A DNA stretch of 64,000 nt from an uncultured Pelagibacteraceae bacterium (GTDB taxonomy: Bacteria; Pseudomonadota; Alphaproteobacteria; Pelagibacterales; Pelagibacteraceae), in the NCBI GenBank assembly GCA_902580275.1, contig CACHJZ010000002.1, forward strand, positions 62,001 through 126,000, in the 5' to 3' direction. This document shows positions 485 to 59,612 of the stretch, in pieces (position 1 is the stretch's first letter; each line of letters opens with the position of its first letter). A program made the position numbers and the translations under genes. A model generated the notes under the pieces. It searched no databases and had not been told where the DNA came from. It saw nothing but the letters and a program-made list of their open reading frames with translations.

Positions 485-1930
485 TTAAATTTTTTGATCG
501 TATTCACCAACCTTACCAGTTTGATGTAAAAGATTATCAATAAAATTAAAAATTTCTTTTTTAATTTTATCTGAGGTCGGACTTTCAGTAACTATAACTA
601 GTGAAGGTTTATTTGATGAAGCTCTAATTAATCCCCAAGACCCATCTTTAAGAGTAAATCTTACACCGTTTACTGTCAAAATATCTATTATCTCTTGGCC
701 TTCAATTTTTATATTTTTATTTTTTAAATCTTTAATTTTAAAAGTTATGTCATCTATGACATCATATTTTTCATTATCTTTACAAAAAGGGCCCATAGTA
801 GGACTTTGATATGTTTTTGGTAGAGCATTGATTAAAACATCTAAATATTCATTTTGATTGTCTAATAATTTACATACTTGAATTGCAGAATTAATACCAT
901 CATCATATCCGTATCCTAGTGGTTTATTAAAAAAGAAATGACCACTTTTTTCAAACCCTGCTATTGCATTATCTTCATTTACCTTTCTTTTAATATATGA
1001 ATGGCCCGTCTTCCAATAAATAGTTTCACAGTTATTTTTTTTTAAAATTTCATCTTTCATAAATAATCCTGTTGATTTAACATCTACAACAAACTTTGAA
1101 TTTTTATGAGCATTAGAAATATCTCTTGCAATTAATAGACCAATTTTATCTGCAAATATTTCATTTCCCTTATTATCTATTACACCAACTCTATCACCGT
1201 CCCCATCAAACCCAAAACCAACATCTGCTTTATTTTCTTTAACACATTTAGCGATTTCATGAAGCATCGCCATATCTTCTGGATTAGGGTTATACCTTGG
1301 AAAAGTATAATCTAAATTGCAATCTAATTCTATTACATCACAACCTATACCTCTTAAAATATCTGGGGCAAAAATACCAGCAGTGCCGTTTCCACAAGCT
1401 GCCACTACCTTTAGTTTTTTCTTAATTTTATTTTGTGATAGTTCATGAATGTAAGTTTTATTAAAATCTTTCACCTCTTCATATTTTCCAGATCCTTTTG
1501 AAAATTTTTCATTCAATACTATATCTTTTAGATCTGACATTTCATCCTTGCAATGAGTTAAGCCTTTTTCAATACCCATTTTTATTCCTGTCCATCCGTT
1601 TTCATTATGACTTGCAGTTATCATTGCTACTGCATCAGAATTTAATTTAAATTGAGAAAAATATACTGTAGGTGAGAGGCACAAACCTATATCTTTAACG
1701 TTGCAACCTGTTGATAATAGCCCTTTAACAAAATTTTTTTTTACATTTTCACTATATGATCTATAATCATGTCCAACTATCACTGTTGGATTTTTTATTT
1801 TAGAAATAACTTGAGTCCCAAATCCCTTTCCAACTGAATCGATTCCCTCCTCATTAATGCTTTCTGGAAATAACCACCTTGCGTCATATTCTCTAAAGCC
1901 TAAGGGATCTATTTTTTTAAGATTAGACAT
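485..1930 (-). CDS. Phosphomannomutase/phosphoglucomutase
   Basis: This 481-residue protein belongs to the alpha-D-phosphohexomutase family, which interconverts hexose 6-phosphate and 1-phosphate in the cytoplasm. The phosphoserine loop TASHN is at residues 105-109 (Ser107), the magnesium loop DGDGDR at 242-247, the sugar loop GFEKSGHF near 325, and the phosphate-binding RASSNKPS near the C-terminus. Length fits the AlgC/ManB type. It could supply mannose 1-phosphate to the GDP-mannose-dependent polysaccharide genes at 50-56 kb, but that link is inference. It is divergent from nrdA. Whether it prefers mannose or glucose cannot be told from sequence alone. Confidence 0.88.
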   Translation of the reverse strand: MSNLKKIDPLGFREYDARWLFPESINEEGIDSVGKGFGTQVISKIKNPTVIVGHDYRSYSENVKKNFVKGLLSTGCNVKDIGLCLSPTVYFSQFKLNSDAVAMITASHNENGWTGIKMGIEKGLTHCKDEMSDLKDIVLNEKFSKGSGKYEEVKDFNKTYIHELSQNKIKKKLKVVAACGNGTAGIFAPDILRGIGCDVIELDCNLDYTFPRYNPNPEDMAMLHEIAKCVKENKADVGFGFDGDGDRVGVIDNKGNEIFADKIGLLIARDISNAHKNSKFVVDVKSTGLFMKDEILKKNNCETIYWKTGHSYIKRKVNEDNAIAGFEKSGHFFFNKPLGYGYDDGINSAIQVCKLLDNQNEYLDVLINALPKTYQSPTMGPFCKDNEKYDVIDDITFKIKDLKNKNIKIEGQEIIDILTVNGVRFTLKDGSWGLIRASSNKPSLVIVTESPTSDKIKKEIFNFIDNLLHQTGKVGEYDQKI

Positions 1931-2005
1931 GTTGATATTTGTATATTTTTTTTAATTTTTTATTGCTAAATTTTTTATTATGTTCTATAAATGTTCTGTT
2001 GATTT

Positions 2006-2053
2006 TTAATTCATATAGTGTATTAAAGATATCTTCATACAACATATAGTTGT
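2006..2053 (+). promoter_or_regulatory. Candidate pair of NrdR boxes upstream of nrdA
   Basis: Two elements resemble the NrdR box (consensus ACACTATATATAGTGT). Bases 2006-2021 end in ATATAGTGT and match about 11 of 16 positions. Bases 2039-2053 form a perfect ACAAC-ATATA-GTTGT inverted repeat. Their centres are about 32 bp apart, roughly three helical turns, which is the usual arrangement of NrdR box pairs. They lie directly before nrdA, whose ribosome-binding site AAGGG is at 2066-2070. The left box is weak, so this is a proposal. Confidence 0.42.
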
Positions 2054-2074
2054 TTAACAAATTTTAAGGGATTT

Positions 2075-4015
2075 ATGAACAAATTAGTATCTCAGGCAAT
2101 AAAGAAAGCTGTCTCAGAATATAGCAATAACAACCAGGAGTTGATTAATAAGGATAAAAGACCAGATTTATTCTCCTTAAATAATAATACTGAACTATTT
2201 CAAAACTCTAGAGGCATAACTATCAAAATAGACAGATCAAGAGATAGTAATTTAACAGATTTTGGTAAAGCAACTTTAAGCGATAGATATTTGGGTGAAA
2301 ATGAGTCATTCCAAGATCTCTTTGCAAGGGTTGCTAGTCATTATGCAGATGACAATTTACATGCACAAAGACTTTACAATTACATAAGTCAACTTTGGTT
2401 CATGCCAGCAACACCAGTTTTATCTAATGGTGGAACAACAAGGGGTCTTCCTATTTCGTGTTTTCTCAACGAGGCAGGAGATAGCCTAAACGGAATTTTA
2501 GATTTATGGAGTGAAAATGTTTGGCTAGCAGCTAGAGGAGGAGGAATTGGAAGTTACTGGGGAAACCTTAGATCTATTGGTGAAAAAATTGGAAGAGTAG
2601 GTAAGACTTCTGGAATAATTCCATTTATTAAAGTTATGGACTCTTTGACAATGGCAATAAGTCAGGGTTCTTTGAGAAGAGGATCAGCAGCATGTTATCT
2701 ACCAATTGATCATCCAGAAATTGAAGAGTTTATTGAAATGAGAAGACCTACAGGTGGTGACCCAAACAGAAAAGCTTTAAACTTACATCATGGAGTTTTG
2801 GTATCAGATGCGTTTATGCGAGCAGTAGAGATGGATGAACAGTGGGCGTTAAAAAGTCCAAAAGATGGAGCTGTTCAAGCAACTGTATCAGCAAGAAATT
2901 TATGGATTAGACTTCTAACAGCTAGAATCGAAACTGGTGAACCATATATAATTTATATAGATACAGTTAATAGAATGATCCCACAACATCATAAGCTCGC
3001 AGGTTTAACTGTTAAGACATCAAATCTTTGCAGCGAAATTACTTTACCGACGGGTGTTGACAAAGAGGGTAGAGATAGAACCGCAGTATGTTGTTTGTCC
3101 TCTTTAAATGTAGAAAAATATGACGAATGGAAAGATGATGAAAATTTTATTGGTGATGTAATGAGATTTTTAGACAATGTTCTTACTGATTTTATTGAAA
3201 ATGCACCAGAACAATTTAGTGATGCAACTTACTCTGCGTTAAAAGAAAGAAGTGTTGGATTAGGTGTAATGGGACTCCATTCATTTTTTCAAAAGAAAAT
3301 GATTCCGTTAGAATCTGTTATGAGTAAAGCTTGGAATAAAAAGATTTTTGAACACATTCATAAACATGTTGATAAAGCATCAAAAGATTTAGCTGAAGAA
3401 AGAGGACCTTGTCCTGATGCAGCTGAGTATGGAATTAATGAAAGATTTTCAAATAAAACTGCTATTGCTCCAACAGCATCTATTTCTATTATTTGTGGCG
3501 GAACATCACCAGGTGTTGAACCTATAGCTGCTAATAGTTACACGCATAAAACCTTATCTGGATCATTTAATGTAAAGAATAGACATTTAAAGCAAATCCT
3601 TGCTAAATACGATAAAGATAATGATGAAGTTTGGTCAAGCATTACAACTAATCAAGGATCTGTTTCACATTTAGATTTCTTAAATCAAAATGAAAAAGAT
3701 GTATTTAAAACAGCTTTTGAGCTAGATCAAAAATGGATAATAGAATTGAGCGCTGATAGAACACCTCATATATCTCAAGCTCAATCAATAAACATATTTT
3801 TACCTGCAGATGTGCATAAAAAAGAGCTACATCAAATTCACTTTCAAGCTTGGAAAAAAGGATTGAAAAGCTTGTATTATTGCAGGTCAAAATCAATTCA
3901 ACGTGCTGAAAATGTTAATGATGCAAAATCAACAGATATTACAGCTAACGTTTACAAATCTAACAAACAACAAGACAGTCAACCAGAATATGAGGAGTGT
4001 TTATCATGTCAGTAA
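2075..4015 (+). CDS. nrdA: Ribonucleoside-diphosphate reductase, alpha subunit (class I)
   Basis: The large subunit of class I ribonucleotide reductase reduces NDPs to dNDPs. The active-site set is present: Cys129 in PISC, the thiyl-radical motif NLCSE at 317-321 (Asn317, Cys319, Glu321), the partner cysteine in AVCCLSSLN about 25 residues later, and a C-terminal CLSC pair at 642-645 for regeneration by thioredoxin or glutaredoxin. The 646 residues are shorter than E. coli NrdA (761). The N-terminus passes almost directly into the catalytic domain, and no ATP-cone motif is visible. The end overlaps nrdB by 10 bases, so the two subunits are translationally coupled. Confidence 0.95.
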   Translation: MNKLVSQAIKKAVSEYSNNNQELINKDKRPDLFSLNNNTELFQNSRGITIKIDRSRDSNLTDFGKATLSDRYLGENESFQDLFARVASHYADDNLHAQRLYNYISQLWFMPATPVLSNGGTTRGLPISCFLNEAGDSLNGILDLWSENVWLAARGGGIGSYWGNLRSIGEKIGRVGKTSGIIPFIKVMDSLTMAISQGSLRRGSAACYLPIDHPEIEEFIEMRRPTGGDPNRKALNLHHGVLVSDAFMRAVEMDEQWALKSPKDGAVQATVSARNLWIRLLTARIETGEPYIIYIDTVNRMIPQHHKLAGLTVKTSNLCSEITLPTGVDKEGRDRTAVCCLSSLNVEKYDEWKDDENFIGDVMRFLDNVLTDFIENAPEQFSDATYSALKERSVGLGVMGLHSFFQKKMIPLESVMSKAWNKKIFEHIHKHVDKASKDLAEERGPCPDAAEYGINERFSNKTAIAPTASISIICGGTSPGVEPIAANSYTHKTLSGSFNVKNRHLKQILAKYDKDNDEVWSSITTNQGSVSHLDFLNQNEKDVFKTAFELDQKWIIELSADRTPHISQAQSINIFLPADVHKKELHQIHFQAWKKGLKSLYYCRSKSIQRAENVNDAKSTDITANVYKSNKQQDSQPEYEECLSCQ

Positions 4016-51969: not shown

Positions 51970-53040
51970 GTGATTTATCAAATTAAACCAGTAATTGGAA
52001 AAAATGCAAAAAAAAATTTAATAAATTATATTAATAAAGATAACTGGTTAACCGAGTACAAAAATACACGTGATTTTGAAAAAAAATTCGCAAAATTTAC
52101 TACTTCAAAAAACTGTATCACTTTTCCAAATGGAACTCTCACAATGTACGCTATTTTAAGTTGCTTAAACTTAAAAAAATCATCAGAAGTTTTAGTCTCA
52201 AATTATACTATGGTTGCCACAGCTAATGTTGTCAAAATGGCTGGTTTGAAGCTGAAATTAGTTGATATAACTGATGAAGATTTTTGTATGTGTCCTAAGG
52301 ATTTATTGAAAAAAATTACAAAAAGAACAAAAGCCGTCATTTATACTCAGATGAATGGAAGAAATGGTAAAATAGATGAAATATCAAAAATATGTAAAAA
52401 AAAGAATATATTTTTAATAGAGGATGCCGCTCATGCTATTGGTAGTTATATAAAAAACAAACATGCAGGGAACCATGGTATAGCATCTTCTTTTTCATTT
52501 AGTATGCCAAAATTAATAACAATGGGTCAAGGTGGCTCTGTAATTACCAATAATTCAAAGCTTGCAAAAAAACTTAGATTATTCAAAAACTTTGGAAGAA
52601 AAATAGATGGCTTAGATATTCATAATTATCTTGGATATAATTTTAAAATTACGGATTTACAATCTATTTTAGCTACCTCTCAACTACAGGATATAAAAAA
52701 AAGAATAAATTTAAAAAAAAAAATTTTTCTTAGATATTTTAACAAATTAAAAAATAATAAAAAAATTAAAATATTAAAAATGAAACCAAAAGAAACCCCT
52801 TGGTCTGTAGATATATATGCTAAAAATATCAATAAACTTAAACAAAAACTCAAAAGTCAAAATATTTTGACAAGGAATGTTTATCCTCCATTGAACAGTC
52901 AAAAAATATATAAGAAATATAAAGGACTTCCTGTATCAAATAATTATTGTAAAAATGGACTTTGGCTACCATCAAGCTTAGACATTAAAATGTCTCAAAT
53001 TGATAAGATATCTAGTATAATAAATAAATTTTATAGATAG
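51970..53040 (+). CDS. DegT/DnrJ/EryC1/StrS-type sugar aminotransferase
   Basis: A 356-residue PLP-dependent sugar aminotransferase-fold protein. The pyridoxal site reads FSFSMPKLITMGQGGSV with the Schiff-base lysine, LIEDAAHAIGS precedes it, and NYLGYNFKITDLQS follows. Together with gmd this suggests a 4-amino-4,6-dideoxy (perosamine-type) or similar sugar. Deoxygenating relatives (ColD-like) have His in place of the PLP-binding Lys, and that is not seen here. The start is GTG at 51970, 6 bp after gmd. Confidence 0.83.
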   Translation: MIYQIKPVIGKNAKKNLINYINKDNWLTEYKNTRDFEKKFAKFTTSKNCITFPNGTLTMYAILSCLNLKKSSEVLVSNYTMVATANVVKMAGLKLKLVDITDEDFCMCPKDLLKKITKRTKAVIYTQMNGRNGKIDEISKICKKKNIFLIEDAAHAIGSYIKNKHAGNHGIASSFSFSMPKLITMGQGGSVITNNSKLAKKLRLFKNFGRKIDGLDIHNYLGYNFKITDLQSILATSQLQDIKKRINLKKKIFLRYFNKLKNNKKIKILKMKPKETPWSVDIYAKNINKLKQKLKSQNILTRNVYPPLNSQKIYKKYKGLPVSNNYCKNGLWLPSSLDIKMSQIDKISSIINKFYR

Positions 53041-53047
53041 ATCCAAA

Positions 53048-54253
53048 ATGCAATTTCGTAAGAGATGTTTATCTTGTAATAAAAAAAATTTAAAAGAAAT
53101 AATTAATCTTGGTTCCCATTCATTTGCAGACAGATTTATTGAAAAAAAAAATTTAAAAAAAAAAGATCCTTTGTATCCATTGATTCTGGATTTTTGTCCT
53201 AACTGTTTATTTATTCAGTCAAGAGTGATAACAAATCCTAAGCAAAGATATTCTGCAGTAGATTATTCCTATACGTCATCTAACTCTAATTATGCAAAAA
53301 ACCACTGGATTGAATTTGCTAAAAGTCTGAATAAAAAATTTTCATTAAGAGGTAAAAAAATATTAGAAATTGGTTCTAACGATGGTTTTTTATGTAATGA
53401 ATTAAAAAAAAAAGGATCAAGATGTGTTGGGGTTGATGCTTCAAAATTTATGACCAAGCTTTCATCCAAAAAAAAAATTAATTCAATTACCTCGATATTT
53501 AATTATAACGAGAGCAAAAAAATAAAAAAAAAATTTGGGCAGTTTGATTTTATAATTGCCAATAATGTTTTTAATCATTCTAATACTCCATCAAATTTTT
53601 TAAAAGGTGTATTCAATCTGCTAAATAATGACGGTATTTTTATATTTGAGCAACCAGATTTTGCTATTGGTGCAATTTCATTAAAATTTGATCAAATATA
53701 TCATGAACATGTATCTTATCTTACAACTAAAAATATAAAATCTATTCTAAATTATAATAATTTTAAATTAACATATATAGATAGAAATGAATATCATGGA
53801 GGAAGTTTAAGATCATTTGCACAAAAAAAAAATTCAAAAATACTTAATAGCATTATTGAACCAAAAAAAATTCAAAATTATGACCAAATATATAATTTAA
53901 GGTTTTATCAAAATATGATGAAAAAAATTAAAAAGAAAAAAAATATTCTTTTGAAAAAAATTTCAAATCTCAGAAATGCTGGTTATGTAATTTGTGGTAT
54001 TGGCGCAGGTGCAAAAGCAAATACATTTTTAACTTATTATGGTTTAGATTATAAAATTGTAGATTTCATAACAGATGCTTCAAAATTTAAAAAAAATAAA
54101 TTTACCCCTTTTACAAAAATACCGATTAAAGATGATTTACAACTTAAAAAATTTAAAAAAATTGCTTGTATAATTTTAACATGGAATATAAGTAGCTTAG
54201 TTATTAAAAAAATCAAAAAATTAAATAAAAAAATTATAATTTTATATAATTAA
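53048..54253 (+). CDS. NDP-sugar C-methyltransferase-like, class I SAM methyltransferase
   Basis: A 401-residue three-part protein typical of sugar C-methyltransferases. It has an N-terminal zinc-binding region (CLSCNKK and CPNC), a SAM-binding domain with LEIGSNDGFLCNEL, and a C-terminal Rossmann-like part with GIGAGAKANTFLTYYG. The active-site region DQIYHEHVSYLT is conserved in TylC3/CloU-like enzymes. It would add a methyl branch to a keto-sugar nucleotide. The C-terminal region is lysine-rich and coded by long A runs. Confidence 0.83.
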   Translation: MQFRKRCLSCNKKNLKEIINLGSHSFADRFIEKKNLKKKDPLYPLILDFCPNCLFIQSRVITNPKQRYSAVDYSYTSSNSNYAKNHWIEFAKSLNKKFSLRGKKILEIGSNDGFLCNELKKKGSRCVGVDASKFMTKLSSKKKINSITSIFNYNESKKIKKKFGQFDFIIANNVFNHSNTPSNFLKGVFNLLNNDGIFIFEQPDFAIGAISLKFDQIYHEHVSYLTTKNIKSILNYNNFKLTYIDRNEYHGGSLRSFAQKKNSKILNSIIEPKKIQNYDQIYNLRFYQNMMKKIKKKKNILLKKISNLRNAGYVICGIGAGAKANTFLTYYGLDYKIVDFITDASKFKKNKFTPFTKIPIKDDLQLKKFKKIACIILTWNISSLVIKKIKKLNKKIIILYN

Positions 54254-54255
54254 AT

Positions 54256-54642
54256 ATGAAGTACAAAAAATTAAAAACTAATTTCAAAGATAAAAGAGGT
54301 TCAATCACTGACATTTTTTATAAAAAAAATATACAACATGTTGCGATTATTAAATCTAAACCAAACGTAAGAAGAGGTGATCATTATCATAAAAAAACAA
54401 CACAATGGATGTATATAACCCAAGGCTCTTTAGAATATTGGTATAAACCTGTAAATTCAAAAAAAAAACCAAAAATGAAATTATTAAAAGTTGGGGATCT
54501 GGTTGAAACACCTCCTTATGAAATGCATGCCTTAAAGATTGGCAAGAAAGGGAATGAATTTGTAGTTTTTACCATTGGTAAAAGAGGCGGAAAAGATTAT
54601 GAAGGTGATACCTTTAGATTTAAACCAACATTAATTAAATAA
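54256..54642 (+). CDS. Cupin-domain sugar isomerase/epimerase-like (WxcM/FdtA type)
   Basis: A 128-residue single-domain cupin. RRGDHYHKKTTQWMYITQGS carries the metal-type histidines HYH, and VETPPYEMHAL provides a late histidine. It resembles FdtA/WxcM C-terminal 3,4-ketoisomerases of deoxy-sugar pathways. In this operon it could isomerise the 4-keto sugar made by Gmd before amination. Activity and position specificity are inference. Confidence 0.72.
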   Translation: MKYKKLKTNFKDKRGSITDIFYKKNIQHVAIIKSKPNVRRGDHYHKKTTQWMYITQGSLEYWYKPVNSKKKPKMKLLKVGDLVETPPYEMHALKIGKKGNEFVVFTIGKRGGKDYEGDTFRFKPTLIK

Positions 54643-54645
54643 TTA

Positions 54646-55071
54646 ATGTTTAAAATATATTCTAAAATAAAAAAAAAAAAACTTTTACATATTTTTTTTA
54701 AATCAAAAAATTTTAAAGGTAGACAAAATCTTTCACCTAATAATGAATTTCTACAAGCTTCAGTAATTAACTTTACATCGAAGAAAGTAATTAATTCTCA
54801 TCATCATCTAAAACACGAAATATCTAATAAAAAAAGACCAATTCAGGAGTCGTGGATATTAATTAAGGGAGAAGCTAAAATTACATACTTTGATGTTAAC
54901 AAAAAAAAAATAAAATCCTTTACGATGAGACCAGGTGATATTTCAATAACTTATTACGGAGGACATGAATTGAAAATTATAAAAAAAAATAGTTTGCTTT
55001 ATGAGTACAAAACTGGACCATACAAAGGTAGTGAAAAAGATCTAAAATATTTTAAAAAAACAAAAAAATGA
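54646..55071 (+). CDS. Second cupin-like protein of the polysaccharide operon
   Basis: A 141-residue protein with a cupin-type core: NSHHHLKHEI, ESWILIKGEAKITYFD and RPGDISITYYGGHE. The N-terminus is short and highly basic. It differs clearly from the preceding cupin, so it is not a recent duplicate. Its function is unknown; sugar isomerase or binding protein is plausible from the neighbours. It overlaps the acyltransferase by 4 bases. Confidence 0.65.
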   Translation: MFKIYSKIKKKKLLHIFFKSKNFKGRQNLSPNNEFLQASVINFTSKKVINSHHHLKHEISNKKRPIQESWILIKGEAKITYFDVNKKKIKSFTMRPGDISITYYGGHELKIIKKNSLLYEYKTGPYKGSEKDLKYFKKTKK

Positions 55072-56114
55072 TTTTACCTTTAGAAACATTTAGAGGTATT
55101 TTTGCACTAGTAATTGTATTACATCATCTTAAAATAGACACTTTTATTCAAAAATCTAATTTTATAATTAATGGTGGTTTAGTTGTAGATTTTTTTTTTG
55201 TATTAAGTGGTTTTGTAATAAGCCTAAATTATCTTGATAAAATAAAATCAAAAAATGATTTAATTATTTTTCAAAAAAAAAGGTTTTTAAGGTTGTACCC
55301 CTTACATTTATTAACACTACTGATGTTTATAATCATAGAGGTAATTAAATTGATGGTAAACACTTACACCAGTTTACAATCTACATATGTTCCATTCTCA
55401 GGCTTGAATAATATATACTCCTTGGTAGCAAATTTTTTTTTAATTCATGGTTGGTACGGCTGGTCTTTTAATTTACCGAGCTGGTCAATCTCTACAGAAT
55501 TTTATACTTATTTTATTTTTGCCCTAATTATTCTAAATTTTAGATACAGATTATTTTTTTTTGTTACTTTAGTTTTATTTTCATTAATACTTTTTTATTT
55601 AAATAACACTGGAGTAAATACACTTAATAATTTTATTTATCCAATAAGATGTATTTATAGCTTTTTTCTTGGCTCATTAACTTTTATTATCTTCAAAAAA
55701 TTAAATAAAAATTTTTCTGATTTTTTTTCGTATTTACTAATTTTTTTTAGTTTATTAATCATAAATTTTAGTGACCAACTATTTATGAATAACAAATATA
55801 TTATTGCATCATTTATATTTAGTTTAACAATATTATTTGTTTCAAGTTTGCATAAATCTTCATCTTTAAAAAAAATACTATCTAACAAATATACTGTTTT
55901 TTTAGGTAGTATAAGCTATGGCATATATATGATACATTTTGGTGTTGTTTGGTTTTTTAGACAATTTAGTAAATATATCTTGGATATAAAAGAAGAAGCA
56001 AATTACTTAGTATTTAATTATTATTTAGGTGAATTATTCACAATCCTTTTTGTATTGTTTATTATATTTTTATCTTATTTATCCTTAAAATATTTTGAAA
56101 ATAGATTTAGATAA
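55068..56114 (+). CDS. Acyltransferase 3 family membrane protein
   Basis: A 348-residue integral membrane acyltransferase with about ten segments. The N-terminal signature LETFRGIFALVIVLHHL holds the conserved Arg and His, and FFFVLSGFVIS and RFLRLYPLHLL are also typical. Such enzymes (OafA type) acetylate or succinylate O-antigen and other glycans. It is the last gene of the operon. The tRNA-Leu fragment that marks the mobile element starts 72 bp downstream. Confidence 0.88.
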   Translation: MILPLETFRGIFALVIVLHHLKIDTFIQKSNFIINGGLVVDFFFVLSGFVISLNYLDKIKSKNDLIIFQKKRFLRLYPLHLLTLLMFIIIEVIKLMVNTYTSLQSTYVPFSGLNNIYSLVANFFLIHGWYGWSFNLPSWSISTEFYTYFIFALIILNFRYRLFFFVTLVLFSLILFYLNNTGVNTLNNFIYPIRCIYSFFLGSLTFIIFKKLNKNFSDFFSYLLIFFSLLIINFSDQLFMNNKYIIASFIFSLTILFVSSLHKSSSLKKILSNKYTVFLGSISYGIYMIHFGVVWFFRQFSKYILDIKEEANYLVFNYYLGELFTILFVLFIIFLSYLSLKYFENRFR

Positions 56115-56125
56115 TATTAAATAAT

Positions 56126-56226
56126 TTTACTTATTAGACTTGTTCAATTATAAATATTAGCATAAACACTCATGAAAATAACTCATGCCCTCGTGGTGAA
56201 ATTGGTAGACACAAAGGACTTAAAAT
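56126..56226 (+). repeat. Left copy of 101-bp direct repeat: tRNA-Leu upstream region plus 5' half (att-left)
   Basis: This segment matches 58697-58797 without gaps and with only five mismatches, all in its first 35 bases; the last 67 bp are identical. It spans about 60 bp upstream of tRNA-Leu and the tRNA sequence up to the anticodon loop, where identity ends abruptly at TTAAAAT. It marks the left end of the inserted element. Confidence 0.9.
56187..56226 (+). pseudogene. Truncated tRNA-Leu(UAA), 5' half only
   Basis: The 40 bases from GCCCTCG to TTAAAAT equal positions 1-40 of the intact tRNA-Leu at 58758. The sequence then switches to unrelated DNA, so no anticodon 3' stem, variable arm, T arm or acceptor 3' strand follows. 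It cannot give a tRNA. Its upstream region is also duplicated, so a short non-functional transcript could still be made. Confidence 0.9.
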
Positions 56227-56250
56227 AGTTTGAATTGAGGAATTTAAAAG

Positions 56251-56280
56251 TCCCTAATAGTCTCTAATAGTCTTAATCCC
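56251..56280 (+). repeat. 10-bp-phased short repeats next to the left attachment core
   Basis: Bases 56251-56280 read as TCCCTAATAG, TCTCTAATAG and TCTTAATCCC: two near-identical 10-mers and a decayed third, one per helical turn. They lie 25 bp inside the left att repeat, where recombinase or bending-protein sites are expected. Similar short AATCCTAT-type sequence occurs downstream at 56284 and, inverted, near 58646. Confidence 0.5.
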
Positions 56281-56351
56281 TTATAATCCTATATATTTTA
56301 AAACCATCGAATTATTTTTATTGGAAAATCTTACTTATTAATTTTAAGATT

Positions 56352-56380
56352 CTCGGACCATTCTCGGACATAGTGAGATA
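56352..56380 (+). repeat. 29-bp direct repeat, left copy, two CTCGGAC units
   Basis: CTCGGAC occurs twice, 11 bp apart, within a 29-bp sequence that matches 58656-58684 with one mismatch (T56374 against G58678). It stops 10 bp before the ATG of the first element gene. In the circular form it would lie about 125 bp from the core on one side, fitting an integrase arm site. Confidence 0.85.
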
Positions 56381-56390
56381 TATTATTATT

Positions 56391-56975
56391 ATGAGAATTT
56401 TTGGTGATGCAATTGATGATAAAATTTTTCCTAAAAAAATTAAAAGATTTACACAAGAAGAAAAAAATTTAATTGAGAAGTTTGTAAATTCTATATTGAG
56501 AAACGACAAATACTCTGAACTAGAGAATTCCGAGATAAATCAATTTAATGATAGATTGGATGGTATAACTGAAGAAATACACAAATACTTTATTTTCAAA
56601 AAATCAGAGATCTCATTAAGATTTAGCAAATATTATACTAACGAAAAAAAAAAGTGTAATTATATTACTGAATTTGCTTATGATGGCAGAGGTACTTTTA
56701 ATGGTTCTCCTTCCAAAAGTTTAATTAATGACTTTGAAAAAGATAAGTCAATAACTGGTATATATGTAAAAGGTTTCTACAAACTTGATCTTGAATTTAT
56801 GTTAGAATCTGAATATCCCAAAGATTATCCAAAAACTGACGAGTTAGCGATTAGAACCAGATATGAAGATGCAGGGAGTGGTGGGAGTAGTTTAACAAAA
56901 GAATGTAAAAGAAGAATTGAGAAAGTTCATTTTAAAATTATTAACAATGCTATTTTAAAGGCTGTAAAAAGATGA
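56391..56975 (+). CDS. Element gene 1: protein of unknown function
   Basis: A 194-residue soluble protein with no motif I recognise. The N-terminal third is charged and helical (KKIKRFTQEEKNLIEKFV). The middle and C-terminal parts look like mixed alpha/beta, with EFAYDGRGTFNG, GIYVKGFYKLDLEF and a glycine/serine-rich DAGSGGSS. I start at ATG 56391; an in-frame GTG at 56373 lies inside the 29-bp repeat. The stop overlaps gene 2 by 4 bases, so the four genes are probably translated as a set. Confidence 0.7.
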   Translation: MRIFGDAIDDKIFPKKIKRFTQEEKNLIEKFVNSILRNDKYSELENSEINQFNDRLDGITEEIHKYFIFKKSEISLRFSKYYTNEKKKCNYITEFAYDGRGTFNGSPSKSLINDFEKDKSITGIYVKGFYKLDLEFMLESEYPKDYPKTDELAIRTRYEDAGSGGSSLTKECKRRIEKVHFKIINNAILKAVKR

Positions 56976-57403
56976 AAAAACTAATACCAAAAAATAAGAG
57001 ATTTATAGAGAGTATCAATGCTACTACAGAGGATATTGAAGATCTTTATTATGTTGTGATGCTTTATAACTTATCAATGCATTTTGAAAAAAAGATATTT
57101 AAGAAACCAAAAAAATTTCTCAAGTGGTGTCATAAATCACATCAAAAAAAAATTAAATCAATTAAAAGTCCATTTAGTCAATTTACATTTACACAAATGA
57201 ATGATGGCATCTTTTATACTGTAGATGGTATTCCAGTTGCCCTAAGACATATATTAAAAAAAGCTAAGTATGGTGAAAATATAAGAGATAGTGTGAATAA
57301 TTGGATATACAAGGAATTAACAAATTATGTAAGCAATGATGAACGTACTGAAGTCTGGGAAGAATTTGGAAATATTTTTTACAAATATAGTAATATGGAA
57401 TAA
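56972..57403 (+). CDS. Element gene 2: protein of unknown function
   Basis: A 143-residue, lysine-rich protein, probably helical, with no recognised family. There is one phrase of interest, GIFYTVDGIPVALRHILKKA, but no catalytic pattern. It overlaps gene 1 by 4 bases (ATGA) and gene 3 by 1 base (TAATG). The overlaps and sustained length make it very likely a real gene. It may be a partner or immunity-type component of the nuclease encoded last in the set; that is speculation from position. Confidence 0.68.
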   Translation: MKKLIPKNKRFIESINATTEDIEDLYYVVMLYNLSMHFEKKIFKKPKKFLKWCHKSHQKKIKSIKSPFSQFTFTQMNDGIFYTVDGIPVALRHILKKAKYGENIRDSVNNWIYKELTNYVSNDERTEVWEEFGNIFYKYSNME

Positions 57404-57729
57404 TGCCACTAAGTTATAAAAAAGCTGATCCTTTAATTTATGGAGCCGTAAAGAATTTAACTTGTATAACAGAGGCAGACAAACAACCACATCACGAGGA
57501 ACAATATTATTATATTTTTTGGGTATCACATATTGATAAAGTTCATATGTCTGGTGGACTGAATAAATCTCAAGTCAAAGAATGGTTTAAAATTTCAGAT
57601 TATGAATTCGATCAAAAGTTAGAATTAAAAGAATTCTTTTGCAAGGTTTGCAATACAGAGAGCGATACTGCTTTTGCAAGATTGGCTAAAGAAGGCAACA
57701 AAACATGTATAAATTGTTTAAATAAATGA
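57403..57729 (+). CDS. Element gene 3: small zinc-ribbon-like protein
   Basis: A 108-residue protein with two CxxC pairs near the C-terminus, CKVC and CINC, about 20 residues apart. These probably form one zinc ribbon. Upstream is a segment GLNKSQVKEWFKISDYEFDQKL that could be a small helix-turn-helix. Such small zinc proteins can be DNA-binding or adaptor proteins. It could be the element's regulator, but no homologous family is recognised. It overlaps both neighbours. Confidence 0.7.
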   Translation: MPLSYKKADPLIYGAVKNLTCITEADKQPHHEEQYYYIFWVSHIDKVHMSGGLNKSQVKEWFKISDYEFDQKLELKEFFCKVCNTESDTAFARLAKEGNKTCINCLNK

Positions 57730-58637
57730 AAGATAGAAATTCTCATGATAAATATAAAACCTATTCATATAGTAAATTATCAGTTATTGAAAAATCTTTA
57801 CCAAGACAATTGAGTCAATTGGAGCATTTAATAGACAAAACTCAAGATAAAATAAATATTTATAAAAATAAAGTTTATGAGATAGAGCAAAAAATTCAAA
57901 AAAATATTGAAAATAAAATTGGAACGAATCAATCAAATAATAATGGATTACATATTATTTCTTATTTTATTTGTTTTATCCCAATAACATTATATTTATA
58001 CTTAAAAACAGATGCAGATATAAGTAGTAGTTTATTTGTAGCATTTTTTATAAGTTTTTTTCCTTATGGATTTGTTTATTTTTTATTTGAAAAATTGATC
58101 TCTTCAAGTTCGGCACTACAAAAATTAGACTACGATAAGACTTATGAAAAAATTTATAAAGCAAAAACTAAAAATAACTCCAGATTCAAAAATACTAATA
58201 AAAAATTAAAAAATTTAGAAAGAAAAATTGAAATTTTAGATAATAATTTTTGGAAATTAAAAAATCTGAATAGAAATATTGGTTCTTTTAAAAAAAGAGC
58301 TAAACGGAGAGAAGAAAGATCAAAAATAGTAGCATTTGATAAGAAAGCTAGAGATGGAGCTCAAATTGTAAGGAGAGATCTGTTAAATAGTATAACATCC
58401 AAACAAAATTGGAAATGTCCATATTGTAATTTAAATAAAAAAATAAGTTTTTCACAAGCAGATCATATTCATCCGATCAACAAAGGAGGTTTGAGTACAT
58501 ACCAAAATATGGTTTTAATTTGCAGAGAATGTAATTCTAATAAAAAAGCATTAACTTTAAGAGTATTTGCAAAAAATATGAATTATAACTTCAATAAAAT
58601 ATGCGATAGATTAGAATTATTAGGTAAAGATGTTTAA
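57726..58637 (+). CDS. Element gene 4: membrane-anchored HNH endonuclease
   Basis: A 303-residue protein in four parts: a coiled-coil-like N-terminus (about 15-65), two membrane segments (about 75-93 and 102-124), a second coiled-coil region (about 135-200), and a C-terminal HNH nuclease. The HNH domain has CPYC at 231-234, DHIHP at 246-250, Asn261 and CREC at 266-269, so zinc ligands and catalytic histidine are complete. Both membrane segments precede the nuclease, which probably faces the cytoplasm. A nuclease held at the membrane suggests action on entering or phage DNA. It is the last of four overlapping genes. Confidence 0.85.
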   Translation: MKDRNSHDKYKTYSYSKLSVIEKSLPRQLSQLEHLIDKTQDKINIYKNKVYEIEQKIQKNIENKIGTNQSNNNGLHIISYFICFIPITLYLYLKTDADISSSLFVAFFISFFPYGFVYFLFEKLISSSSALQKLDYDKTYEKIYKAKTKNNSRFKNTNKKLKNLERKIEILDNNFWKLKNLNRNIGSFKKRAKRREERSKIVAFDKKARDGAQIVRRDLLNSITSKQNWKCPYCNLNKKISFSQADHIHPINKGGLSTYQNMVLICRECNSNKKALTLRVFAKNMNYNFNKICDRLELLGKDV

Positions 58638-58655
58638 TAGGATTTTATAGGATAA

Positions 58656-58684
58656 CTCGGACCATTCTCGGACATAGGGAGATA
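58656..58684 (+). repeat. 29-bp direct repeat, right copy, two CTCGGAC units
   Basis: This copy of the 56352-56380 sequence, with one mismatch, lies 19 bp after the stop of the HNH gene and 12 bp before the right 101-bp repeat. With the left copy it brackets the gene set exactly. In the circular form the two copies would flank the attachment core. Confidence 0.85.
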
Positions 58685-58696
58685 AAATAAAAAAAA

Positions 58697-58797
58697 TTTA
58701 CTTATTCATCTTGTTCAATTATAAATAATGGCATAAACACTCATGAAAATAACTCATGCCCTCGTGGTGAAATTGGTAGACACAAAGGACTTAAAAT
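58697..58797 (+). repeat. Right copy of 101-bp direct repeat (att-right)
   Basis: Matches 56126-56226 at a constant offset of 2571 bp. It supplies the upstream sequence and 5' half of the functional tRNA-Leu. The region TTGTTCAATTATAAAT in both copies may include the tRNA promoter. Five substitutions in the first 35 bp distinguish the two copies. Confidence 0.9.
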
Positions 58798-58843
58798 CCT
58801 TGCCCTTTTGGGAGTGCCAGTTCGAGTCTGGCCGAGGGCACCA
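58758..58843 (+). tRNA. tRNA-Leu(UAA)
   Basis: An intact 86-base tRNA with encoded CCA. The acceptor stem GCCCTCG/CGAGGGC pairs perfectly, the anticodon arm AAGGA-CTTAAAA-TCCTT shows anticodon TAA, a long variable arm is present as expected for leucine, and the T arm is GCCAG-TTCGAGT-CTGGC. The 5' half lies in the right copy of the element's repeat, so the present gene is a chimera of element and chromosomal DNA. The nadK start codon follows the CCA after only 4 bases. Confidence 0.96.
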
Positions 58844-58847
58844 GTAA

Positions 58848-59612
58848 ATGGTTAAGCCTAATATTATTTCAGATCAGAATAAAAAGTCATTAAAAATTAA
58901 ATCTTTAATTCAAAAAAAATTAAATAAAATTTATTTTAAAAATTTAAATATCGTAATTGGTGGAGACGGTTTTATGCTCAAAACTTTAAAAAAAAATAAG
59001 TTTTCCTCTAAATTTTTTTATGGATTAAATTCTGGTGACTATGGTTTTTTAATGAATAAATTTTCGTTAAATTCTTTTATTAGAAATTTAAATGAATCAA
59101 AATTAATTACTATCTCCCCACTAGAAATGAAAGTGATCAATAAAAAAGGTCACAAAAAAAAATTTTTAGCAATCAATGAAGTTTCAATTTTAAGACAAAG
59201 CAGACAGGCAGCATCTCTCCAAATTAAGGTAGGATCGAAAACAATAATTAAAAGATTAATTTCTGATGGGGTATTAGTTTCTACACCAGCTGGTAGCACC
59301 GCATATAATTTATCTGTAAGAGGTCCTATTTTGAGTTTAAACTCAAAAAAATTATCGATTGCTCCAATTAGTCCTTTCAGACCAAGAAAATGGAAAGGAA
59401 AAATAGTTACAGATAAATTAAAGGTATCAATAAAAAACCTTAATACAATTAAAAGACCAATAAGCGCAGTTGCTGATAATTTAGAGATAAGAAATGCAAG
59501 ATATATTGAAGTAAAGATAAATAATAAAATAAAATTTAGATTATTGTATGATAAAAATAGAAGCTTACAAAAAAAAATTAAATTAGAACAATTGAGAAAA
59601 GAAACTAATTAA
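58848..59612 (+). CDS. nadK: NAD kinase
   Basis: A 254-residue ATP-NAD kinase that makes NADP. The glycine-rich GGDG is at residues 38-41, followed by GLNSGDYGFLMN, ISDGVLVSTPAGSTAYNLS and the SPFRPRKW block. These match the family, although the usual GGDGTFL reads GGDGFML. Only 4 bases separate the start codon from the tRNA-Leu CCA end, with no room for a ribosome-binding site outside the tRNA. Translation may be leaderless after tRNA processing. Confidence 0.92.
   Translation: MVKPNIISDQNKKSLKIKSLIQKKLNKIYFKNLNIVIGGDGFMLKTLKKNKFSSKFFYGLNSGDYGFLMNKFSLNSFIRNLNESKLITISPLEMKVINKKGHKKKFLAINEVSILRQSRQAASLQIKVGSKTIIKRLISDGVLVSTPAGSTAYNLSVRGPILSLNSKKLSIAPISPFRPRKWKGKIVTDKLKVSIKNLNTIKRPISAVADNLEIRNARYIEVKINNKIKFRLLYDKNRSLQKKIKLEQLRKETN

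Follow-up and report, generated by a model that had tools for sequence, protein, structure and literature searches.

A Cassette in a tRNA-Leu(UAA) Gene of an Uncultured Pelagibacteraceae Bacterium Is One of a Large, Diverse Set in SAR11

RESULTS

The Segment at tRNA-Leu(UAA)

We analyzed a 64,000-nucleotide stretch (the window) of contig CACHJZ010000002.1 from an uncultured Pelagibacteraceae bacterium, in which a segment carrying four genes lies between two copies of part of a tRNA-Leu(UAA) gene. Small cassettes of this sort form a large and varied set at this tRNA gene in ocean SAR11, nearly all of them lacking an integrase gene but carrying short matched motifs at either end. It is bounded by a 118-nt direct repeat (56109–56226 and 58680–58797, 92% identity) whose copies are exactly 2571 bp apart. 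The initial annotation of this DNA had described a 101-bp repeat at that offset with five mismatches and an identical last 67 bp, and a recount by eye of the final 101 bp gave the same values. It had also placed an intact tRNA on the right and a 5'-half fragment on the left, the repeat ending in the anticodon loop. In agreement, ARAGORN calls an intact tRNA-Leu(taa) at 58758–58843 and no tRNA at the left copy, and the anticodon loop CTTAAAA is present in both copies (56219–56225 and 58790–58796). They share one further T (56226 and 58797) and then diverge; divergence at CTTAAAA is seen in other elements as well as in the window. A second repeat, absent from that annotation, lies inside both ends of the segment: a CTCGGAC pair with 11-bp spacing, on the left at 56352/56363 and on the right at 58656/58667. 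The sequence TTCTCGGAC is found three times in the window (0.08 expected), each time within these CTCGGAC repeats, which we call boxes. The features are as follows.

From about 56109 (+): native promoter region, upstream of the left remnant (repeat comparison)
56187–56225 (+): left remnant, tRNA-Leu(UAA) 5' half through the anticodon loop, attL side (repeat and ARAGORN)
56219–56225 (+): left CTTAAAA of the anticodon loop, presumed 7-bp strand-exchange region (the copies part here)
56226–58796 (+): cassette, 2571 bp, if exchange falls in CTTAAAA (repeat; empty sites of related cassettes)
56226–56245 (+): type C core-proximal sequence TAGTTTGAATTGAGGAATTT, common to 13 other segments of 109 (nine aligned)
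56249–56278 (+): three AGTC(C/T) repeats, 10-bp period (read from the sequence; by eye in alignments)
56352–56373 (+): left box, CTCGGAC twice at 11-bp spacing, +126 from the core (repeat search, alignment)
56391–56975 (+): cargo open reading frame (ORF) 1, 194 aa, without a family (ORF list, Pfam/PHROGs/PADLOC)
56972–57403 (+): cargo ORF2, 143 aa, sub-threshold matches only (ORF list, Pfam/PHROGs/PADLOC)
57403–57729 (+): cargo ORF3, 108 aa, without a trusted family (ORF list, Pfam/PHROGs/PADLOC)
57726–58637 (+): cargo ORF4, 303 aa, C-terminal HNH nuclease (Pfam PF01844)
58638–58655 (+): right-end motif TAGGATTTTATAGGATAA, which recurs at cassette right ends, also at tRNA-Ser (alignments)
58656–58677 (+): right box, CTCGGAC twice at 11-bp spacing, -103 from the tRNA half (repeat search, alignment)
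58680–58757 (+): promoter region supplied by the cassette (repeat comparison)
58758–58843 (+): restored intact tRNA-Leu(UAA), the 5' part through 58796 supplied by the cassette (ARAGORN)
58848–59612 (+): nadK-like gene, fixed right neighbour (PF20143)

The four coupled genes that the annotation had seen between the copies are borne out by the ORF coordinates: the ORFs overlap and all read away from the left half. ORF4, an HNH nuclease (PF01844, 2e-11), is the only recognisable one; ORF2 matches a thymidine kinase fragment at 0.001, below the cut-off, and ORF3 has CxxC pairs close to its end (by eye). The earlier view that no integrase, excisionase or virion gene fits inside was borne out, as none of these families was matched at a trustworthy E-value in Pfam, PHROGs or PADLOC, and the idea of an integrase hidden in the cassette was dropped on the same searches. 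For the four ORFs the PHROGs matches were to HNH endonuclease families, with none to a virion family that could be trusted, which sets the segment apart from a prophage. Among 399 genomes of the genus the HNH protein has two relatives, in cassettes at tRNA-Ser(UGA) and tRNA-Met(CAU). At a guess, it might be a nuclease directed against incoming DNA.

A Hotspot of Small Cassettes

Occupancy was taken from two genome surveys only, in which copies of the tRNA-Leu 5' half are pattern matches with at most three mismatches, sometimes on separate contigs (genomes G129, G444, G042 and G007) and in one genome (G364) with a doubtful second match. The pattern was found in 144 of 201 genomes of the genus, once in 84, twice in 48 and three times in 12, giving at least two copies in 60 of the 144. 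In a further 65 genomes, not preselected, 57 were matched and 24 of these had at least two copies. The tRNA-Ser(UGA) pattern matched 61 of the same 65 genomes, three of them with at least two copies.

To the window we added 120 fetched tRNA-Leu regions, picked mostly for having at least two copies (one batch was single-copy and one mixed), and obtained 109 inter-copy segments; some of these are intervals that follow a degenerate half and are perhaps not cassettes (e.g., L052_0, L060_0, L203_0 and L213_0). In the first batch (n = 57) the median segment length was 2571 bp, and 48 segments fell within 1–6 kb. Tandem arrays of cassettes occur, mixed-type ones included. With integrase-bearing elements and a 15-kb element set aside, 122 of 130 ORFs of at least 100 aa in this batch read away from the left half. 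In a scan of 93 ORFs selected from the first batch, the first 25 of 76 Pfam families and the first 25 of 167 PADLOC families listed include trypsin-like proteases, DNA methylases, specificity subunits, caspase-like proteins, MORN proteins, ABC transporter parts and ATP-grasp enzymes. One 5.7-kb cassette (L075_0, genome G064) holds at least ten consecutive copies of a single family of 160–190-aa proteins, with a related array in L184_1 (G373). Four hotspot segments are 11–15 kb long (L085, L179_0, L185_0 and L193_0), three of them with common cargo; none matched the nine integrases used as queries.

Frames, Boxes and Cargo

Directly past the core the segments fall into frame types A1 (..GGATTCACA), A2 (..GGATAGAAG), B (AACATAGGG) and C (TAGTTTGA). 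The labels follow simple string rules, which also place the four intervals named above under A2. The window segment is of type C, as are 14 of the 109 with it included. AGTC repeats with a 10-bp period follow in most types (by eye). Canonical boxes at both ends, near +126 and -103, were present in 79 of the 109 segments.

The 7-mers vary from element to element and match within each. Between the left and right box of an element, the fraction of agreeing 7-mer letters is 0.930; with boxes of other same-type elements it is 0.670, and none of 20,000 within-type permutations reached 0.930 (the highest gave 0.772). Of the 79 segments, 56 have four identical 7-mers, and in 65 no right box matches better than the element's own (ties allowed); there are 25 right 7-mers, and related cassettes are counted separately in these statistics. 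The comparison is not circular, because boxes were picked by similarity within one side and not across. A first count left out 10 of 57 segments with weak boxes and L064 for its size; the second left out 30 of 109, including two integrase-bearing segments with an imperfect left box.

Cargo and frame assort separately. Type C cargo that is 99.7–99.9% identical is found with two box addresses, the left arms being 78–98% identical, and homologous cargo sits in A1 and B frames (L199 versus L205 and L186_1; L087 versus L187). Replacement of a single attP block would account for both boxes changing together. In L064 (G077, oriented positions 2508–2775) a 267-bp type C frame with a single CTCGGAC box pair carries no cargo; it is either an empty attP module or a deletion product. 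Another frame class (AGTATTC.. or AGTGTTC..; L059, L191_1, L194_1, L196 and L201) has the right box CTAGTGTA at -85 and not -103.

Empty Sites and Transfer between Hosts

The annotation had proposed comparing this junction in relatives for empty sites and different cargos, and both were found; vertical inheritance of the segment and lack of an empty site, which it had named as the contrary outcomes, were not seen. In five pairs of empty and occupied loci the left flanks are 83–94% identical, and the identity reaches the tRNA half or stops at most 5 bp short of it. In most of these pairs the occupied copy has a different promoter version before the restored tRNA, and in L089, L072 and others the right-hand promoter version is unlike the native left one. 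L120, compared with L074, gives a box-free empty site for a cassette of type C, the window's own type; L102, compared with L061, is less clean, since it retains an older box upstream. At 34 single-copy tRNA-Leu loci the right box was absent in 22 and present in 12, and some "single" loci are thus old or cut-off occupied sites.

A type C ATP-grasp cassette in L074, L078 and L203 is 99.7–99.8% identical over 2352 bp, where the adjoining nadK genes are 77–79% identical (no nadK value is available for L191, the fourth copy). The cassettes of L051 and L063 are 96.9% identical and their nadK genes 73%. Such near-identity in unlike hosts points to recent movement of the cassettes as units.

Integrase-Bearing Elements

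Homologues of a ~550-aa tyrosine integrase (nine queries) were found in at least two of the 109 segments, L072 and L082. A profile built from four such integrases matched 4 of 397 family genomes, and in 53 genomes Pfam Phage_integrase matches lay inside bounded hotspot elements in G120 and G168 only. Most other matches were to proteins of 300–340 aa located elsewhere, Xer-like to judge by their length; the window's own genome has one match, of 310 aa, about 90 kb away.

The element family comprises L072, L082 and L156 in genomes and L131, L146, L150 and L154 in viral contigs, with integrases of 544–551 aa; where both ends are seen (L072, L082, L131 and L156) the elements are 7.7–8.8 kb long. 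L082 encodes a primase-helicase (archaeo-eukaryotic primase, AEP/DUF5906) and a RusA-like endonuclease, with no virion family match in the eight ORFs scanned, and L131 has the same primase and nuclease. The ends of the L131 contig overlap by 99 bp, as for a 7.7-kb circle. Presence of four related contigs in a viral collection is not proof of packaging.

These elements share the geometry of the cassettes. All seven have their right pair at -102 to -104 and 11 bp further on. In the six with a left arm, box copies lie at +128 to +130 and at +140 or +141, the first being imperfect in four, and a third copy near +165 falls inside the 5' end of the int gene. The A1 flank GGATTCACA is common to A1 cassettes and the ~550-aa integrase elements. 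The likeliest helpers are primase-bearing elements of this kind. A search for the helper through its box gave seven viral contigs that contain CTCGGACNNTTCTCGGAC; tblastn with five integrases of the two families matched none of them, and the type C attP was found in no viral contig. Two distant relatives of the integrase (26–36% identity) are encoded in L160 (G373:C16), behind a tRNA-Leu half with attL TATTCCAGTC, and in L161 (G384:C13), which lacks the tRNA-Leu half and has CTAG-type repeats in the 5' coding part.

Other tRNA Targets

The tRNA-Ser(UGA) half stops within the anticodon loop, CTTGAAA. Matched box pairs lie at +118 and at -94 to -96 in three occupied loci (L177, L251 and L253), and a fourth, L252, is imperfect. 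Best pair scores were 8–10 at occupied loci and 4–8 at 27 single-copy loci; two of the latter score 8 (L226 and L231), and L226 is the only one of the 27 with a box-like pair. The cassette design at tRNA-Ser(UGA) is the same as at tRNA-Leu, but rarer. The genome that contains the window has an apparent tRNA-Ser(UGA) cassette split over two contigs (L254 at the end of C2 and L255 on C16) with box CTTGTACG, at +117 in L254 and, imperfect, at -95 in L255. At tRNA-Met(CAU), L178 (G008, 1353–3670) has a 67-bp tRNA repeat that extends as far as the T-loop; its two cargo blocks, one of which encodes the HNH relative, come with three boxes (GGTCCACT..).

DISCUSSION

Mechanism and Alternatives

The window segment is probably a non-autonomous integrative cassette mobilised in trans, and its boxes are most likely arm-type address sites. 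A tyrosine recombinase acting in trans would join a circular cassette to tRNA-Leu(UAA), with strand exchange in the 7-nt loop CTTAAAA. The tRNA stays intact because the cassette supplies its own promoter and 5' half, and the native 5' half is left as a stub. In the circle the order would be right box, arm, promoter, tRNA 5' half, core, AGTC repeats and left box, so that the joined ends would form one contiguous, portable attP of about 270–290 bp able to carry any cargo. Were the paired 7-mers read by the integrase or a partner protein, as seems most likely, a cassette would be moved by helpers of the same address.

Several points weigh against this scheme. Neither a cassette circle nor excision was seen, and the canonical box pair is absent in 30 of the 109 segments. 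An integrase with ends of type C was missing from the 14 type C segments, from 12 matched loci (of whose genomes G373, L164, and G406, L175, appear to be chance matches without a frame) and from viral contigs. The integrase count is a lower bound, since distant recombinases may escape detection, and integrase-bearing L160 (G373) and L156, unbounded in their regions, lie outside the 109.

The boxes might instead be promoter operators, or serve a second recombination system for the exchange of cargo. The identity between L074 and L078 breaks at box edges, the cargo-free frame of L064 has a single box, and the three boxes of the tRNA-Met cassette surround two cargo blocks, all as such a system would have it. 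We nevertheless consider this unlikely: the distance to the core is fixed whatever the cargo, distances are equal in integrase-bearing elements, where the box lies inside the int gene, and similar geometry recurs at tRNA-Ser with another promoter.

Decay is a rather improbable origin. A complete tRNA-Leu element would have lost its integrase and become a fixed remnant, a classical cis-mobilizable element (CIME), moved at most with a neighbour. Complete elements do occupy the same site, degenerate halves and lost borders exist (L052_0, L090_1), and mismatched box pairs occur (L057_0, L183_0, L186_0). However, the cargos are unlike and no subset of the genes of integrase-bearing elements, the boxes stay in register in 79 of 109 segments, and cassettes 97–99.8% identical in hosts whose nadK genes are 73–79% identical argue for recent movement as units.

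That the cassettes are moved by the integrases of tRNA-Leu pelagiphages (HTVC105P type, 297 aa) is very doubtful. HTVC105P (45 bp exact) and MedDCM-OCT-S35-C6 have the tRNA part of the core just behind the integrase gene, so that an identical tRNA half stands beside a candidate enzyme, and the accessible text of PMC3861242 gives a 46-bp tRNA-Leu match of a pelagiphage contig. The annotation had suggested searching pelagiphages for the 101-bp core; the tRNA half is present in phages, but the rest of the 101 bp is not common to them. The phage attP, which shares the tRNA half and core, has no identical 7-mer pair (by eye) and differs in the flank right of the core, whereas the ~550-aa elements match the cassette geometry and, for A1, the flank. 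These phages are complete 42-kb genomes, unlike the cassettes. Finally, the direct repeat alone would fit an ordinary local duplication involving the tRNA 5' half and resident genes; this was rejected in view of empty sites, unlike cargos in relatives and near-identical cargo in unlike hosts.

Relation to Known Systems

On the best reading, these trans-mobilised cassettes class with CIME-like elements and work like a cassette system. The window cassette keeps attL and attR and carries no integration or transfer genes, as in the CIME definition (PMC5704250, excerpted text). A CIME would also descend by decay from an integrative and conjugative or integrative and mobilisable element (ICE or IME); the integrase-bearing elements scanned showed no conjugation genes. 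In Dehalococcoides, 15 ssrA islands lack integration modules (PMC3146451, excerpted text). As far as these excerpts describe them, both resemble the cassettes in that cargo lacking integration genes is flanked by att sites and arrayed in tandem at an RNA gene, with integrase-bearing kin nearby. In SAR11, by contrast, lack of an integrase is the norm, conserved frames come with variable boxes that match each other, the crossover would fall in the anticodon loop with the 5' half restored, and cargo switches frames.

Tycheposons and virion-encapsidated integrative mobile elements (VEIMEs) are likewise marine and tRNA-targeted, with a tyrosine recombinase and with cargo and satellite-like forms (PMC10872708, PMC11389934 and PMC10803314, available passages). 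According to those citing papers tycheposons measure 4–200 kb and have a recombinase, whereas SAR11 cassettes are mostly 1–6 kb without one; the window cassette has the tRNA border and no tyrosine recombinase, and so is no tycheposon. Phage-inducible chromosomal minimalist islands (PICMIs) have a core of int, alpA and primase, in the available text of PMC10803314. The SAR11 integrase-bearing elements resemble them in pairing an integrase with a DUF5906 primase, as in L082 and L131, and in having no capsid gene in the ORFs scanned, but the scanned ORFs of these two gave no AlpA family match, nor those of L082 a Fis match. The cassettes have none of the PICMI genes; the window cassette lacks integrase, AlpA-type regulator and primase alike. 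The annotation's "helper-dependent satellite or mobile cassette" stands as a cargo cassette of a widespread family and falls, by content, as a phage satellite.

By analogy, the working of the system would resemble that of integron cassettes and clusters of attC sites lacking integron-integrases (CALIN), small cargo arrays with the integrase encoded elsewhere (PMC11389934, partial text). The SAR11 site differs in being a tRNA gene, and the units comprise one to six or more genes plus a duplicated tRNA half. We raise, tentatively and at somewhat less than even chances, the possibility of a SAR11 cassette system distinct from integrons, with a ~270-bp portable attP, a four-copy address box that names the integrase, interchangeable cargo, at least two target anticodon loops (Leu-UAA and Ser-UGA) and cargo-only units that far outnumber integrase-bearing elements. 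Such a system, if real, would be a principal route by which genes are exchanged in one of the ocean's most abundant bacterial groups. For gene exchange among streamlined SAR11 genomes, the hotspot offers a concrete and testable route: exchangeable cassettes with restriction-modification, protease, transporter and nuclease genes are present in roughly two fifths of matched genomes. In the matched boxes, nature provides an experiment on the way an integrase recognises its own DNA, and they would pair cassettes with helpers by sequence alone. We found no description of these cassettes in a literature search that covered neither subscription papers nor preprints, and claim no priority. The available text of PMC12416821 reports tyrosine recombinases and tRNA genes alongside a Pelagibacterales phosphonate operon.

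Two minor observations concern the surroundings of the segment. The predicted RNA structure of the half-tRNA stub was no stabler than that of shuffled sequences in three types (z -0.06 to 0.05). The left flank of the segment (window positions 51970–56114) reads like genes for sugar or polysaccharide modification, with an acyltransferase (PF01757) as the sole gene scanned.

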